From positions 1-43,393 of the forward strand of contig CACWYB010000020.1 of the NCBI GenBank assembly GCA_902765005.1: a stretch of DNA of 43,393 nucleotides, given 5' to 3'. The position numbers and the translations under genes were made by a program. This stretch comes from an uncultured Eubacteriales bacterium (GTDB lineage Bacteria; Bacillota; Clostridia; Christensenellales; CAG-138). The notes under the pieces are model-generated. The model saw only the letters and a list, made by a program, of their open reading frames with translations, was not told the DNA's origin and ran no database searches. Below, one piece after another: positions 14,055 to 21,195 of the stretch (positions are counted from its first letter, which is position 1; each line of letters begins with the position of its first letter).

Positions 14055-14942
14055 ATGGCATACAAAAGCGGATTTTTCAGCCTGATCGGCTGCCCCAATG
14101 TGGGCAAGTCCACCCTGCTCAACGCCCTGGTGGGCCAGAAGATCTCCATCGTCACGGACCGGGCCCAGACCACCCGGAACCGGATCACCGGCGTCCTCAC
14201 CCGGGAGGACTATCAGATGATCTTCCTGGACACCCCGGGCATGACCACCCCCAAAAACAAGCTGGGGGAGTACATGCAGAAGACCGCCTCCGACTCCCTT
14301 TCCGACGTGGAGGCCATCCTCTTTTTGGTGGACGCCCGCAAGGGGGTGGGGGAACGGGACCGGCAGATCATGGAGCGGCTGAAGCAGGCCAAATGCCCCG
14401 TGCTGGTCATCCTCAACAAGTGCGACATCGCCACCCGGCTCCAGATCGACGAGGCGGAGGACCTCCTTCGCAGCCAGGGCTTTTCCCACATTTGCCGGAT
14501 TTCCGCCTTCACGGGCAAGGGGCTTTCCGAGCTGGAGGCCGTTTTGGTGGGCTACCTCACCGAGGGCCCCCAGTATTACCCCCCGGACATGGTCACGGAC
14601 CAGCCCGAGCGGCTCATCTGCGCGGAGATGATCCGGGAGAAGGCCCTGGAGCTCCTCAAGGACGAGGTGCCCCACGGCATCGGCGTCAGCATGGACAAAA
14701 TGGAGCTGCGGGAGGGGGGCCAGCTCATGGACTGCTACGCCACCATCCTCTGCGAGCGGGACAGCCACAAGGGCATCATCATCGGCCGGGGCGGCGCCAT
14801 GCTGAAAAAAATCGGCTCCGCGGCCCGGGCGGACATGGAGTGGCTGTTGGGCGTGAAAGTGAATCTGCAGCTGTGGGTGAAGATCAAGGACGACTGGCGC
14901 AACCGGCAGTCCGTCTTGAACGAATTGGGATACGAAGGCTGA
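14055..14942 (+). CDS. era: GTPase Era
   Basis: 295-aa ribosome-assembly GTPase that binds the 3' end of 16S rRNA. G1 GCPNVGKST, the switch segment AQTTRNRITG, G3 DTPGM and G4 NKCD are all present. The C-terminal KH domain has GIIIGRGGAMLKKIG and ends NRQSVLNELGYE. Start is ATG 14055, one base after the cdd stop; a longer in-frame opening at 13992 would lie inside cdd and is not conserved. The structured element copy A begins 3 nt after the stop. Confidence 0.96.
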   Translation: MAYKSGFFSLIGCPNVGKSTLLNALVGQKISIVTDRAQTTRNRITGVLTREDYQMIFLDTPGMTTPKNKLGEYMQKTASDSLSDVEAILFLVDARKGVGERDRQIMERLKQAKCPVLVILNKCDIATRLQIDEAEDLLRSQGFSHICRISAFTGKGLSELEAVLVGYLTEGPQYYPPDMVTDQPERLICAEMIREKALELLKDEVPHGIGVSMDKMELREGGQLMDCYATILCERDSHKGIIIGRGGAMLKKIGSAARADMEWLLGVKVNLQLWVKIKDDWRNRQSVLNELGYEG

Positions 14943-14945
14943 TCG

Positions 14946-15099
14946 GTCTGTCGAAACCTACGGTTTCAACAGACTGGACCGCTGCGGCGGGGTGCTTCGC
15001 AGGAGCTCCGCTTCCAGCCCTTGCCTATGGCCTTAGCAGGCCGCCGGGCGGCAAGAGCTGCAGGGAGTCAAATCCACCGCGCATGTCGCTGGATTTGAC
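14946..15099 (+). ncRNA. Structured intergenic element, copy A (novel covarying multi-hairpin)
   Basis: Lies between era and the yqzL-like gene, in the same orientation as the operon. P1: GTCTGT/ACAGAC with an inner GAAACC/GGTTTC stem and a 3-nt loop (14946-14974). P2: CCGC-TGCG-GCGG (14979-14990). P3: CTTGCC/GGCAAG (15020-15025/15050-15055) enclosing TA, a small hairpin and CCGGGC. P4: a 10-bp stem, 15067-15076 with 15090-15099, capped by the 13-nt loop CCGCGCATGTCGC. Every helix is preserved in copy B with different base pairs, while the TGCG, GCCTA, CCGGGCGGC and 13-nt loop sequences are identical. It could be a non-coding RNA domain or a miniature mobile element; I do not recognise a named family. 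Confidence 0.6.
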
Positions 15100-15169
15100 A
15101 GATTGAAAACAGAACTGTTGAATACCATGATTCGTTTCAGGCGCATACTTTCTCCATAAGGAGGCGCCC

Positions 15170-15325
15170 ATGACACAGGAAGAACGAAAAGCCTTTCAGG
15201 CATTCTACGAGAGCGGCCGGGTGGAGGAATACCTCAAATACGCCCGGCTGCGGGAGAAACAGCATGGCGGACCTGACCTGCAGGGGCATGGTGATCCGGA
15301 CGGTGGATTACCGGGACAACGATAG
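15170..15325 (+). CDS. YqzL-like small protein
   Basis: 51-codon reading frame with an excellent AGGAGG 5-10 nt before the ATG. It occupies the place between era and recO where Bacillus carries yqzL. Its start (AFQAFYESGRVEEYLKYARL) fits the YqzL pattern of an aromatic-rich helix with G-x-V-x-x-YL-x-(F/Y)-x-x-L. The last 20 codons overlap the start of recO by 62 nt in another frame and are Gly/Pro-rich, so only the first 30 residues are likely to be conserved. Function of the family is unknown. It is probably coupled to recO translation. Confidence 0.65.
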   Translation: MTQEERKAFQAFYESGRVEEYLKYARLREKQHGGPDLQGHGDPDGGLPGQR

Positions 15326-16028
15326 AATACTCACCCTATTCACGGCGGAGCAGGGCCGGGTGGACGCCAAGGCGCGCAGCTGCCGCAAGGCCACCTCGCC
15401 CCTGCTCGCCTGCACCCAGCCCTTCGTCTACGGGGAGTATCAGCTCTTCTACCACAAGAACAAATACATCATCGACCAGGGGGAGGTCCTGGAAAGCTTC
15501 TATCCCCTGCGGGAGGACGTGGCGCGCTTCGCCGCGGCCTCTTTGTGCGCGTCCCTGTGCCTGGAGGGGGTCCAGGCGGAGGAGCGGAACGAGGACATCT
15601 TTTCCCTCCTCTACTACACCCTGACCTTCCTCACCTACGGGGAGAACGACCCGGGGGACATGGCCGCCTGCTTCCTCCTACGCTTCCTGGACCGGGCGGG
15701 CTTTCGCCCCGCCATCACCCACTGCGCCGTCTGCGGCCGGGACCTGCGGGAGGACCCGATCCTCCGCTTCCTGCCGGATCGGGGCGGGGCGGTGTGCGCC
15801 GCCTGTTCCCCCGTGGGCCGGCGGGTGAGCAAGACCGCCCTGGAGGCCATGCGCCGCATGCTGCTCCTGGACGACGATCAGCTGGGCCGGGTGAAGATGA
15901 AACCGGAGCTCAGGGGGGAGATCCTGTCCCACCTCATCCCCTACTCGAAAGGGTATCTGCCGGGCATCGAGAAGGCCGCGGCGTTGTTCACCTCCCTCAA
16001 CCTGCCGGCCCCGGCGGAAACGGAGTAA
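15264..16028 (+). CDS. recO: DNA repair protein RecO
   Basis: 254-aa recombination mediator that helps RecA load on SSB-coated single-stranded DNA. The N-terminal OB fold begins MADLTCRGMVIRTVDYRDND, typical of the family. A four-Cys zinc finger is visible as CAVCGRD (about residue 152) and CAAC (about residue 177). Start ATG 15264 is preceded by GGGAGA and fits the usual RecO N-terminus better than the next Met (RGMVIR). It overlaps the yqzL-like gene and is followed after 3 nt by the AEC transporter. Confidence 0.93.
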   Translation: MADLTCRGMVIRTVDYRDNDRILTLFTAEQGRVDAKARSCRKATSPLLACTQPFVYGEYQLFYHKNKYIIDQGEVLESFYPLREDVARFAAASLCASLCLEGVQAEERNEDIFSLLYYTLTFLTYGENDPGDMAACFLLRFLDRAGFRPAITHCAVCGRDLREDPILRFLPDRGGAVCAACSPVGRRVSKTALEAMRRMLLLDDDQLGRVKMKPELRGEILSHLIPYSKGYLPGIEKAAALFTSLNLPAPAETE

Positions 16029-16031
16029 GGC

Positions 16032-16970
16032 ATGCTGCTGCTGAAGGAAACCTTTTTATCCCTCTTTCCCCTGTATTTCTATATGGCCGTGGGGGCCCTG
16101 CTCAGAAGGGCGAAGATCGTTCGCCCGGAGGACCTGCCCCGGCTGAACGCCCTGCTCTTTCGGTCGTTCCTGTTCTTCAGCCTCTTCAACAACGTCCGCG
16201 GCGCCAGCTTCTCCGGGCCGGAGAGCGGCAGGCTTCTCCTCTTCGGGGGCGCGAGCATCCTGTGCCTGTTTGCCCTGTACATGCTCCTGGTGCCCCGGTT
16301 CATCCGGGAGGAAAAGCAGTGCCCCGTGGCCATCCAGGCCATGTACCGGAGCAACTTCGTGCTGCTGGGCCTGGCCTACGCGGAGCAGCTCTGCGGGCCG
16401 GAGAACGTGGGGCCGGTGAGCCTGCTCATGTCCGTGGTGGTGCCGCTGTTCAACCTGCTGGCGGTGTTCACCTTCGAGCTGCTGCGGGGCGGCCGGGTGA
16501 AGGTGGGCCGGGTGCTGCTGAACATCGTCAAAAACCCCCTCATCGTCGCCTCCCTCCTGGGGGCCCTCTGCGCCCTGCTCAATATCCGATTCCCGGACTA
16601 TCTGGACAAGCCCATGAAGTCCCTGGGCGCCGCCGCCACCCCCTTTGCCATGGTGCTGGTGGGGGCGTCCCTCACCGTTCGCTCCATGGCGAAGAATCGA
16701 ACGCTGGTCCTGGGGGTGAGCGCGGGGAAGCTGGTGCTTTCCCCCCTGCTGGTGGTCCCTCTGGCGGTGGTCCTGGGCTTTCGGGACGCGGCGCTGGTGG
16801 GCCTGATGGCGGCCACAGCGGCCCCCACGGCGGTGGCCAGCGTGGCCATGAGCTACGAGCTGGGGGGCGACGGGGAGCTGGCGGCCCAGATCGTGGCCAC
16901 CACCACCCTCATTTCCCTGGTCACCATGTTCCTCTGGATCCTCCTGCTGCGGGGCCTGGGCTACTGCTAA
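16032..16970 (+). CDS. AEC-family (auxin efflux carrier-like) transporter
   Basis: 312-aa membrane protein with about ten hydrophobic helices in two halves. The opening LFPLYFYMAVGALLRRAKIV and the second-half segments GAAATPFAMVLVGASLTV and AATAAPTAVASVAMSYELGG are characteristic of the AEC family, whose bacterial members export or exchange organic acids such as malate. It starts 3 nt after recO, so it is probably the last gene of the long operon. A terminator begins about 10 nt after the stop. Substrate is not predictable. Confidence 0.88.
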   Translation: MLLLKETFLSLFPLYFYMAVGALLRRAKIVRPEDLPRLNALLFRSFLFFSLFNNVRGASFSGPESGRLLLFGGASILCLFALYMLLVPRFIREEKQCPVAIQAMYRSNFVLLGLAYAEQLCGPENVGPVSLLMSVVVPLFNLLAVFTFELLRGGRVKVGRVLLNIVKNPLIVASLLGALCALLNIRFPDYLDKPMKSLGAAATPFAMVLVGASLTVRSMAKNRTLVLGVSAGKLVLSPLLVVPLAVVLGFRDAALVGLMAATAAPTAVASVAMSYELGGDGELAAQIVATTTLISLVTMFLWILLLRGLGYC

Positions 16971-16981
16971 GCGCAAAAAAG

Positions 16982-17006
16982 AGCCGAAGCAAACGCTTCG
17001 GCTTTT
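16982..17006 (+). terminator. Terminator of the phoH-recO-AEC operon
   Basis: A 9-bp stem, AGCCGAAGC (16982-16990) with GCTTCGGCT (16995-17003) and loop AAAC, ends in TTTT. The 25 bases at 16979-17003 recur exactly at 17261-17285. Confidence 0.85.
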
Positions 17007-17151
17007 CAGTCTGTCAAAAAACTTCGTTTTTTACCAGACTGGCTTCCTGCTGCGGCAGGGGTCTGCGGCATCGCCTATACGCCCCCAGGGGCGTACCGGG
17101 CGGCGATGCCTGCAAGGTGTAAAATTTGCCGCGCATGTCGCCAAATTTTAC
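17007..17151 (+). ncRNA. Structured intergenic element, copy B (novel covarying multi-hairpin)
   Basis: Same architecture as copy A. P1: CAGTCTG/CAGACTG with an inner AAAAAAC/GTTTTTT stem (17007-17041). P2: CCTGC-TGCG-GCAGG (17046-17059). P3: GGCATCGCC/GGCGATGCC (17067-17075/17102-17110) enclosing TA, an 8-bp hairpin TACGCCCC/GGGGCGTA and CCGGGC. P4: a 10-bp stem, 17119-17128 with 17142-17151, capped by the identical 13-nt loop. Four of the ten P4 pairs differ from copy A, all by compensatory double changes. It sits between the AEC operon and convergent arcA. The GC-rich stretch 17152-17260 downstream holds further inverted repeats (for example GCCGCC/GGCGGC) and no gene. Confidence 0.6.
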
Positions 17152-17260
17152 GGATCGATAGCGGCCCGTTCTTCCTTCGCCGCCTGCCGTCGGGCGGCTA
17201 CACCGCCCTTGTGTTGCCCGGGGCATGGCGGCGCGCTGGATACGCGGGGGGCGATAAGCT

Positions 17261-17291
17261 AAGAGCCGAAGCAAACGCTTCGGCTCTTTTT
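17261..17291. terminator. Bidirectional terminator downstream of arcA
   Basis: A 12-bp stem, AAGAGCCGAAGC (17261-17272) with GCTTCGGCTCTT (17277-17288), has a T run on the plus strand. On the minus strand it lies 8 nt beyond the arcA stop and reads into TTAGC, so it can serve arcA as well. Confidence 0.7.
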
Positions 17292-19971: not shown

Positions 19972-21195
19972 ATGGGAAATCCGGAACAAAAAAAGAAAAA
20001 ACGCCGTCGGCCCCTGCCGCTCAGGGGCACCCGGTTCGCGCCGCTGCTGCAGGCGCTGCTGGCGCTTGTGCTGGTGGGGGGCGGGGCGGCTGCCTTCGTG
20101 CTGCTGGCCCTGCCCGCCATGCGGGGGGCCGTGGATGCGCCGGCGGACCTGAGCTGCCTGGGCTTTCGGACCCCCACGCCCAGCCCCACGGCCGAGCCCG
20201 CCGCCACGCCCTTGCCCACCCCCGTGCCCGGCACGGAGCGGAGCATCTACGGGGTGGACCTGGCCAGGGTCCAGCATGAGATATTGGTGGGGGAATACCA
20301 GTACGCCGCGGACTTCTCCGTCTATGGGGACACGGTCATCTTCTCCGCCGGCAACTACACCTCCGACGGCACCGCCGCCTTCATCCGGGCCATCCTCTAC
20401 GACACCCGGGCCCGCCGGGCGGAGTATCTGCCTTTGAACGTGGACTATAAGTCCATCCGCTTCCCCCGGCTGAACGACCGGTGGATCGTGTATCTGGACG
20501 CGGCCAACGCCGGCGGCGGGAAGATACGGGTCCTGGACCGGCGGACCAAGGAGAACCGGATATTGAAGACCGTCCACCTGGGCCTGCCCGTGCTCACCTT
20601 GTGGGAGGACACGGTCTTTTGGGTGGAGCGGACGGGCACCAACCGGGACAAGCTCTTCGGCTGCGACCTGAAGACGGGGGAGAGCGTGACGCTGGAGCTC
20701 TTTTCCGGCACGGACGCGGGCATCTCCGCCGCCTATGCGGGGGGCGGGAAGCTGGTGTATGTGTCCGGCCCCGGCACGCTCAAGACCCTGGACCTCACTA
20801 CCGGCGAGACTCGGGAGGACCACTTCGGCCTCACCGTCCACGACCCCAAGACCGACGGGCGGATCACCGCCTTCCTCACGGGTTACCACGGGGAGGACAC
20901 GAGCCTGGTGTATGTGGATGAATCCGGGGCGCTGATCACCGTGGCCAACGGGGTGGCGGATTTCGCCCTGGCCGACGGGGCCATCGTCTTCGGGACCCTG
21001 GACAGGACCTACGTCTACTTCCTGGACGATAGGGCCACCTTCCTTCTGACCCGGGCCAAGGAGAGCGCCATGTTCCTCACCGCCGGCGGGGATCTGGCCG
21101 TGTGGATGGACGTGACCTGGCGGGACAGGGACATCATCGAGTATATGCATCTCAACGACTTTTCCCAGGATCTGACCGAGGAGGGGGAGAAATGA
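19972..21195 (+). CDS. Membrane-anchored beta-propeller-like protein of unknown function
   Basis: 407-aa protein I cannot assign to a named family. A basic cytoplasmic tail (KKKKRRR) precedes one transmembrane helix (about residues 24-48) and a Pro/Thr linker (PTPSPTAEPAATPLPTPVPG, about 65-85). The external domain consists of repeated strands such as DRWIVYLDAA, DTVFWVERT, GKLVYVSG, GAIVFGTLD and GDLAVWMDV, with DLKTGE/DLTTGE turns, as in TolB-like propellers. Start ATG 19972 lies 6 nt after a strong -10 box and has no close ribosome site. The stop overlaps the radA start (ATGA), tying its expression to a DNA repair gene. Confidence 0.7.
   Translation: MGNPEQKKKKRRRPLPLRGTRFAPLLQALLALVLVGGGAAAFVLLALPAMRGAVDAPADLSCLGFRTPTPSPTAEPAATPLPTPVPGTERSIYGVDLARVQHEILVGEYQYAADFSVYGDTVIFSAGNYTSDGTAAFIRAILYDTRARRAEYLPLNVDYKSIRFPRLNDRWIVYLDAANAGGGKIRVLDRRTKENRILKTVHLGLPVLTLWEDTVFWVERTGTNRDKLFGCDLKTGESVTLELFSGTDAGISAAYAGGGKLVYVSGPGTLKTLDLTTGETREDHFGLTVHDPKTDGRITAFLTGYHGEDTSLVYVDESGALITVANGVADFALADGAIVFGTLDRTYVYFLDDRATFLLTRAKESAMFLTAGGDLAVWMDVTWRDRDIIEYMHLNDFSQDLTEEGEK

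Follow-up and report, generated by a model that had tools for sequence, protein, structure and literature searches.

We conclude that two similar repeats in a stretch of DNA from an uncultured Eubacteriales bacterium (GCA_902765005.1, contig CACWYB010000020.1, positions 1 to 43,393 of the forward strand; this whole stretch of 43,393 nucleotides [nt] is called the window here) represent one small, mobile DNA element, which is common in one family of gut Clostridia. The explanation that we regard as probable is that it is a non-autonomous element, similar to a miniature inverted-repeat transposable element (MITE), with IS1182-type ends, that it duplicates the hairpin at its target, and that its internal pairing is most likely kept at the level of DNA. 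A first-pass annotation of the window had put forward a non-coding RNA as the main reading and a miniature mobile element as the alternative. It is the alternative that proves right, through terminal repeats, duplication of flanking hairpins, and sites that are empty in relatives; an RNA is possible, yet the evidence does not favor it.

Two window copies of a dispersed element

The two copies, A and B, have the following parts.

About 14943-15130 (end approximate), plus strand: copy A, whole element, delimited by the empty-site alignment.
14944-14976, plus strand: P1 hairpin of copy A; its 5' arm is a degenerate left terminal repeat, CGGTCTGTCGAAACC, by comparison with left ends elsewhere.
14979-14990, plus strand: P2 of copy A (CCGC TGCG GCGG).
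15015-15060, plus strand: P3 of copy A, with an outer stem (15015-15025/15050-15060), an internal loop TA/CCGGGC, and a variable inner hairpin.
15067-15099, plus strand: P4 of copy A, a 10-bp stem around CCGCGCATGTCGC (15077-15089).
16980-17003, plus strand: left copy of a duplicated terminator-like hairpin, AGAGCCGAAGCAAACGCTTCGGCT (direct repeat between the flanks of copy B, score 25).
17007-17261, plus strand: copy B, whole element (about 255 nt), from CAGTCTGTCAAAAAA to CGATAAGCTA.
17007-17041, plus strand: P1 hairpin of copy B, including the left terminal repeat.
17067-17110, plus strand: P3 of copy B.
17119-17151, plus strand: P4 of copy B, with the loop segment at 17129-17141.
17192-17208, plus strand: P5 hairpin of copy B (GGGCGG-CTACA-CCGCCC), common to many related copies.
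17262-17285, plus strand: right-hand partner of the terminator-like hairpin at 16980-17003, with CTTTTT after it (flank repeat of copy B).

Copy A lies between the stop codon of era (14940-14942) and the next small open reading frame and recO. As the first-pass annotation had it, P1, P2, P3, and P4 follow one another in the same order in both copies, and a 13-nt segment is identical in the two (15077-15089 and 17129-17141); P2 is unrecognizable in several other copies of the source genome. The description of this segment as an invariant 13-nt loop needs amendment: a better reading is a loop of 7 nt, YRCATGY, with CG/CG and one mismatch closing it, which is conserved without being invariant. 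Similarly, of the two sequences proposed as terminal inverted repeats of copy A, the one at its start, CGGTCTGTCGAAACC, is real, and GACAGAT at its end is the 3' arm of P4. The element in fact extends beyond P4 into a 3' part that holds P5 and, where copies outside the window are intact, also the right terminal repeat. We read the 3' end of copy B, CGATAAGCTA, as a probable degenerate form of this repeat (compare TTTTTTGACAAGCTG in loci L104 and L053).

The 13-mer occurs exactly twice in the window, only in copies A and B. With up to two mismatches it has 5 matches against 2.56 expected, which is near chance, and the case therefore rests on the architecture, which greatly exceeds chance. In the source genome the 13-mer search gave 12 matches, of which 10 were read as copies and two (L006 and L008) as chance. 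Eight well-formed copies were aligned, excluding L002 for a large P3 insert and L005 for a degenerate 5' side, and a covariance model (R1) was built from these eight. R1 has 11 matches in the source genome at an E value of ≤1e-4, 8 of them being its own input. It was positive in 17 of 41 genomes in a first set of relatives, none of them among the 16 of that set outside the host's family, and in 47 of 103 genomes across that family at an E value of ≤0.001. A pattern scan of public genomes found at least 117 stretches. Among the 80 listed, nearly all are Clostridia metagenome-assembled genomes by title, many from gut or rumen and including "Candidatus Limiplasma," and R1 has 79 matches in 76 of these 80 loci. 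The four negative loci are L077, L116 (Steroidobacteraceae), L140 (Actinoplanes), and L141, of which L116 and L140 are taken as chance pattern matches. None of 4,227 Rfam families matched the window at the gathering score, and at the E-value threshold the window had sub-threshold matches only, none of them convincing.

Some copies depart from the common form. Locus L002 (G000:C17, around position 20000) has in its P3, after the conserved CCGGGC, an extra insert with further hairpins; L093 and L132 have a second P4-like segment closely 3' of the first, resembling a partial tandem repeat; and L250, L254, and L264, in genome G041, are a variant form of the window family in which about 90 to 100 nt are inserted at the P4 loop. 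Two viral contigs from IMG/VR (L192 and L193) match the pattern. As L192 also has an R1 match of 37.9 bits, a phage or prophage may carry the element.

Insertion at hairpins

In several genomes, the same stem-loop stands both before and after many copies of the element, often together with a T-tract. After removal of identical copies, 161 were collected, and 137 remained usable once 24 had been dropped for short flanks. A flank repeat score of at least 15 was found for 23 of the 137, copy B included, compared with 2 of 680 mismatched flank pairs (p 6e-17). A screen for both ends gave 92 readings over both strands, often one element read on both; a flank repeat of at least 14 was present in 78 of the 92 (controls, 10/1818), and a stem of at least 7 bp in 73 of those 78 repeats versus 179 of 1,560 random segments. 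When sense readings only are counted, a repeat of at least 14 is present for 37 of 45 elements and abuts both ends exactly in 30 of the 37, with lengths of 14 to 47 (median, 29). Intact elements start with CAG..GTC[AG]AAAA and finish with its inverted form. The 45 sense readings comprise 25 of the window family and 20 of a second family, and 38 of them come from G041, so that the precision of the junctions is best documented in that genome. A strict orientation of insertion was not shown: of the 37 elements, 16 have just a T-tract after the right copy, 7 have just an A-tract before the left copy, 7 have both tracts, and 7 have neither (p 0.09).

The second family (about 163 nt, beginning CAGGTTGTCAAAAAAGGGGAAGGTGCAGG; loci L224 to L243 and L247 to L262 in G041) has the same ends and the same duplication of a whole hairpin, without P3-P4. 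It was noticed because right-end pattern matches in G041 (96, versus 6 for a reversed control) exceed R1 matches (51). Twenty further right-end places in this genome were assigned to the second family (13), to the window family (4, of which 3 have an insert), and to chance (3). At L243 (G041:C173), the right end of a second-family element abuts the apparent hairpin of a window-family element, which suggests that the elements may also insert into each other's hairpins.

Empty sites were sought with a 4.6-kb query from the window in 12 genomes of the host's genus. Among the matches listed, the site next to era (site A) holds the element in the window and in G009 and is empty in G001, G002, G003, G004, G006, G008, G010, and G011, that is, in 8 of the 9 alignable relatives; G005 and G007, which could not be judged, were excluded from this comparison. 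At site A, the window and G009 have the same P4 and a different P3, re-paired in both, with one C·A mismatch in the outer stem of the window copy. At the site of copy B, the downstream gene differs in the eight relatives looked at, which leaves this site without a clean empty counterpart. Overall, the copies in the window's genus look old, as few have a right end and some occupy the same site in different species.

The orientation of neighboring genes was called by an iterated codon model whose training set was six genes of the window, and its calls agree with Pfam beside both window copies. For 130 copies with both flanks, the upstream gene is co-directional in 100, opposite in 25, and unknown in 5; the context is tandem for 79 (58 sense and 21 antisense), convergent for 36, and divergent for 4, the rest being partly uncalled. 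Co-directionality in 100 of 125 called copies fits entry at the 3' ends of genes. The same ratio and the excess of tandem sense over antisense contexts also suit a rival explanation, according to which a structured RNA was spread by a mobile element and domesticated, so that P1 to P4 now act at the RNA level, either within 3' untranslated regions or as small RNAs, under selection for RNA pairing. Largely on the pair spectrum described below, and with no Rfam match in the window, we consider this unlikely.

For the MITE-like element, we infer that an IS1182-family DDE transposase, acting in trans, would recognize the terminal repeats and join them at the 5' feet of the stem-loop that it targets, which is often an intrinsic terminator. 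Repair would then yield a hairpin copy on each side, the duplication itself being observed. A hairpin with its T-tract could remain downstream, and such retention of a terminator would make these sites tolerable. This suggests a way in which an element could insert into terminators while the site still has one. Its interior carries P3-P4, with conserved unpaired TA/CCGGGC and YRCATGY on free, near-perfectly paired stems; any role of these internal hairpins is presumptive.

Covariation and the nature of the pairing

The structure-preserving covariation of P3-P4 that the first-pass annotation described from two copies extends to the eight aligned copies of the source genome, in which 18 of 26 pairs have changed on both sides (covariation score, 0.554 versus 0.197 shuffled, with 0 of 500 shuffles as high). 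A larger set, of 93 loci picked for high score, gave 96 matches and 91 distinct rows. Here, 96.4% of cells are paired, both-sided change is found in 24 of 26 pairs and 507 cells, and the score is 0.574 versus 0.168 shuffled (again 0 of 500 as high). The shuffles and slid structures served as controls, and sliding the partners by 1 to 3 columns lowers pairing to 27 to 43%. The large alignment was fitted to the model and is hence biased toward structure; anchor-based counts agree with it. The refuting outcome that the annotation had envisaged, many near-identical copies and no significant covariation, does not apply, as there are many copies and covariation is strong.

A comparison of copies at the same site gives a more direct view of these changes. 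P4 is identical in 14 of 26 copy pairs whose flanking genes match on either side (one of them weakly, at 26% on one side). The remaining pairs have 28 both-sided versus 3 one-sided changes of P4 base pairs, a count made by eye on copy pairs that are not independent, several sharing a site. P1 and P3 are likewise re-paired at such sites. Pairing is kept after insertion, through selection or through a DNA correction process. The claim that simple repeat decay cannot give this pattern stands. Selection on an RNA as its cause does not follow, as alternatives exist, although the both-sided changes at orthologous sites would be expected of a domesticated RNA too. Conserved bases fall in the unpaired places (TA/CCGGGC, YRCATGY, and GCAAGG), which suggests that folded single strands of the element are recognized at some point and is also in keeping with an RNA.

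One way in which stems might be exchanged is gene conversion among paralogous copies, which would swap them as blocks and mimic covariation. P4 alleles do recur at unrelated sites (GTGAGATTCA, GTCAAATCCA, and GTCAAACGCA). However, the inner P3 hairpins are all different in the nine source-genome copies that have P3, so there is no homogenization there, and gene conversion creates no new paired stems. We consider this explanation quite improbable.

A module kept as RNA is expected to tolerate G·U pairs and to avoid A·C. The 91 sequences contain 2,233 Watson-Crick, 25 G·U, 39 A·C, and 45 other cells, that is, 1.1% G·U and 1.7% A·C over the whole alignment. By part, with symmetric counts that treat G·U and A·C alike, there are 24 G·U versus 28 A·C in P1, 6 versus 17 in the outer stem of P3, 5 versus 5 in its inner stem, and 12 versus 4 in P4. 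As an unbiased control, 42 terminator hairpins beside the elements have 18 G·U versus 3 A·C, a ratio unlike that of P1 (Fisher p 0.003) or that of the whole alignment (p 0.0003). The G·U share is 1.1% in the element, compared with 3.9% in these terminators (p 6e-5) and 8.4% (17/202) in transfer RNAs (tRNAs; p 4e-9); as pair cells are not independent, all of these p values are too small. The tRNA figure comes from nine convincing members of 11 ARAGORN predictions (25 G·U, 0 A·C), two of which look false, and it bears on the G·U share only, because ARAGORN brackets standard pairs only and A·C in tRNAs is zero by construction.

P1 and P3 thus fail to give an RNA-type spectrum. With G·U rare and A·C at least as common, their pairing behaves as a property of two DNA strands, and both look strand-symmetric, unlike RNA. 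P4 leans RNA-like and is indistinguishable from the terminators (p 0.44), a point in favor of the domesticated RNA. With less certainty than attaches to the mobile element as such, and on the strength of the P1 and P3 spectrum, we think it most likely that pairing is kept at the DNA level, through hairpin or cruciform use or through palindrome correction, and not as RNA of the sense strand.

Palindrome correction might even suffice in a neutral form, in which the arms template each other's repair and stems drift in a near-perfect state without selection on pairing. The rarity of intermediates, the similar overall frequencies of G·U and A·C, and the wholesale re-pairing at orthologous sites are all consistent with such a process. 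It leaves unexplained, however, the conservation of unpaired motifs and a P3-P4 architecture common to several genera, and the neighboring terminator hairpins retain an RNA-like spectrum. As a full account, we regard it as rather doubtful.

IS1182-type ends and known systems

The element is read as an IS1182-type MITE because its ends are similar to those of IS1182-family transposons in related genomes. Of the 103 genomes of the host's family, 19 contain PF13751, and 28 IS1182-type loci were screened (25 from the search with this domain and 3 others). Element-type ends lie beside the transposase in 6 of the 28, closely matching in L280, L282, and L292 and loosely in L284 and L291, while the left end of L279 is the contig start. 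The ends are CAGTCTGTCAAAAA...TCTTTGACAGACTG in L280 and CAGCCTGTCGAGAA...TTTTCGACAGGCTG in L292. On its two sides the latter locus (1,299 nt) has AGTCAGTTTCTGCAGAAACTGATT and AATCAATTTCTGCAGAAACTGATT, near-identical copies of one palindrome. With the NCBIfam IS1182 model (NF033551, cut-off 270), the transposase of L280 scored 378.9 bits and that of L279 394.6 bits, and a fragment, L268, fell below at 266.1 bits. Two genomes, G074 and G121, contain an IS1182-type transposon with such ends together with the element.

Several observations weigh against this reading. In the window, a target site duplication is present for copy B and absent for copy A, which has no recognizable 3' end, right terminal repeat, or flanking hairpin duplication, and a right end is recognizable in only 9 of 98 window-type copies. 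L292 is alone among the IS1182 copies in having a clear duplicated palindrome, and it is probably decayed, with a longest frame of 275 amino acids; the hairpins on the two sides differ from each other in L280, L282, and L291. The R1 core (P3-P4) has 0 matches in the 28 IS1182 loci. Neither PF01609 nor PF13751 has a match in G041 to G043, including G041, the richest genome in recent copies, with 51 R1 matches, and PF13751 has none in the 12 genomes of the host's genus. The element is present in 7 of 19 genomes with PF13751 and in 40 of 84 without it, which is no association (p 0.45). Incomplete assemblies may explain part of the missing transposase, since many elements in G041 are at contig ends.

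Other attempts to find an autonomous partner gave little. PF01609 was found in 3 of 8 genomes (G012, G044, and G045), and PF13751 gave the same three places. The transposase copies in G012 and G044 have no clear ends, and that in G045 has one end-like sequence, with the contig stopping inside the transposase. When ends were paired, 17 pairs spanned more than 300 bases, and in none of these did the flanks share a repeat of at least 10 bases.

The closest parallels are IS1272 and TnSha1 of staphylococci, of the IS1182 family (PMC5678879 and PMC4923244). IS1272 is directed to inverted repeats, which it replaces without duplicating the target. As described there, both resemble the window element in targeting inverted repeats and terminator hairpins irrespective of sequence, in their short terminal repeats, in an IS1182-family DDE transposase, and in lying just downstream of genes in the four gene-near insertions noted. 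They remove the stem-loop without target duplication, whereas the window element duplicates it. Duplication of a whole stem-loop is drawn in the 2017 IS1272 model, in the excerpts available, only as possible pathway "b" (PMC5678879); here this branch is observed repeatedly and exactly.

A MITE with IS1182-type ends has also been published, MITEPye1 of Paracoccus yeei, with 4-bp direct repeats and 1 to 3 chromosomal copies (PMC11578231, in part). By its description, it is like the window element in its IS1182-like terminal repeats, its intergenic position, and its predicted long stem-loops; it differs in the 4-bp repeats, and the available text mentions no hairpin duplication. A Paracoccus IS1182-family element is tabled with a value that we read as a 4-bp repeat (the accessible part of PMC3281130). 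Two IS1182 relatives would thus make 4-bp repeats, and hairpin duplication is not a rule of the family, a further point against the reading preferred here. BOX, RUP, and SPRITE of the pneumococcus are likewise short, dispersed stem-loop or terminator-like repeats inserted into one another, and the available portion of their account does not mention duplication of a whole terminator at insertion (PMC10969869). An IS1182-type MITE as such is therefore already published, and what differs here is the hairpin duplication and the covarying module; in the open-access full-text literature, as far as it was available, we found no MITE that duplicates a terminator hairpin.

Two kinds of RNA also deserve comparison. 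Group IIC introns insert beside terminator hairpins, but hairpin duplication and terminal inverted repeats are not expected of them, and the window has no Rfam intron match. Structured RNAs of Clostridia in Rfam have similar covariation statistics; the window element differs in having no Rfam match, in its rare wobble pairs, and in being mobile.

The pair spectrum is a practical caution, in that strong covariation usually counts as proof that an RNA is structured, whereas wobble is hardly tolerated in most of this module. The ratio of G·U to A·C, set beside that of nearby terminators, is an inexpensive test by which DNA palindromes in other catalogues could be told from RNA. More tentatively, and with the balance of our judgment somewhat against it, the element may stand for a class of mobile elements that duplicate a whole terminator hairpin on insertion, so that a terminator stays downstream, and carry functional DNA hairpins, with unpaired motifs read by proteins on freely drifting, near-perfect stems. 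If so, their covariation would be strong and RNA-like although they are not RNA, and they would be false positives for covariation-based RNA discovery.

In genome G119, the hairpin to the right of one IS1182 copy is the same as that to the left of another on a different contig (L280 and L291), which suggests recombination or a nested history.

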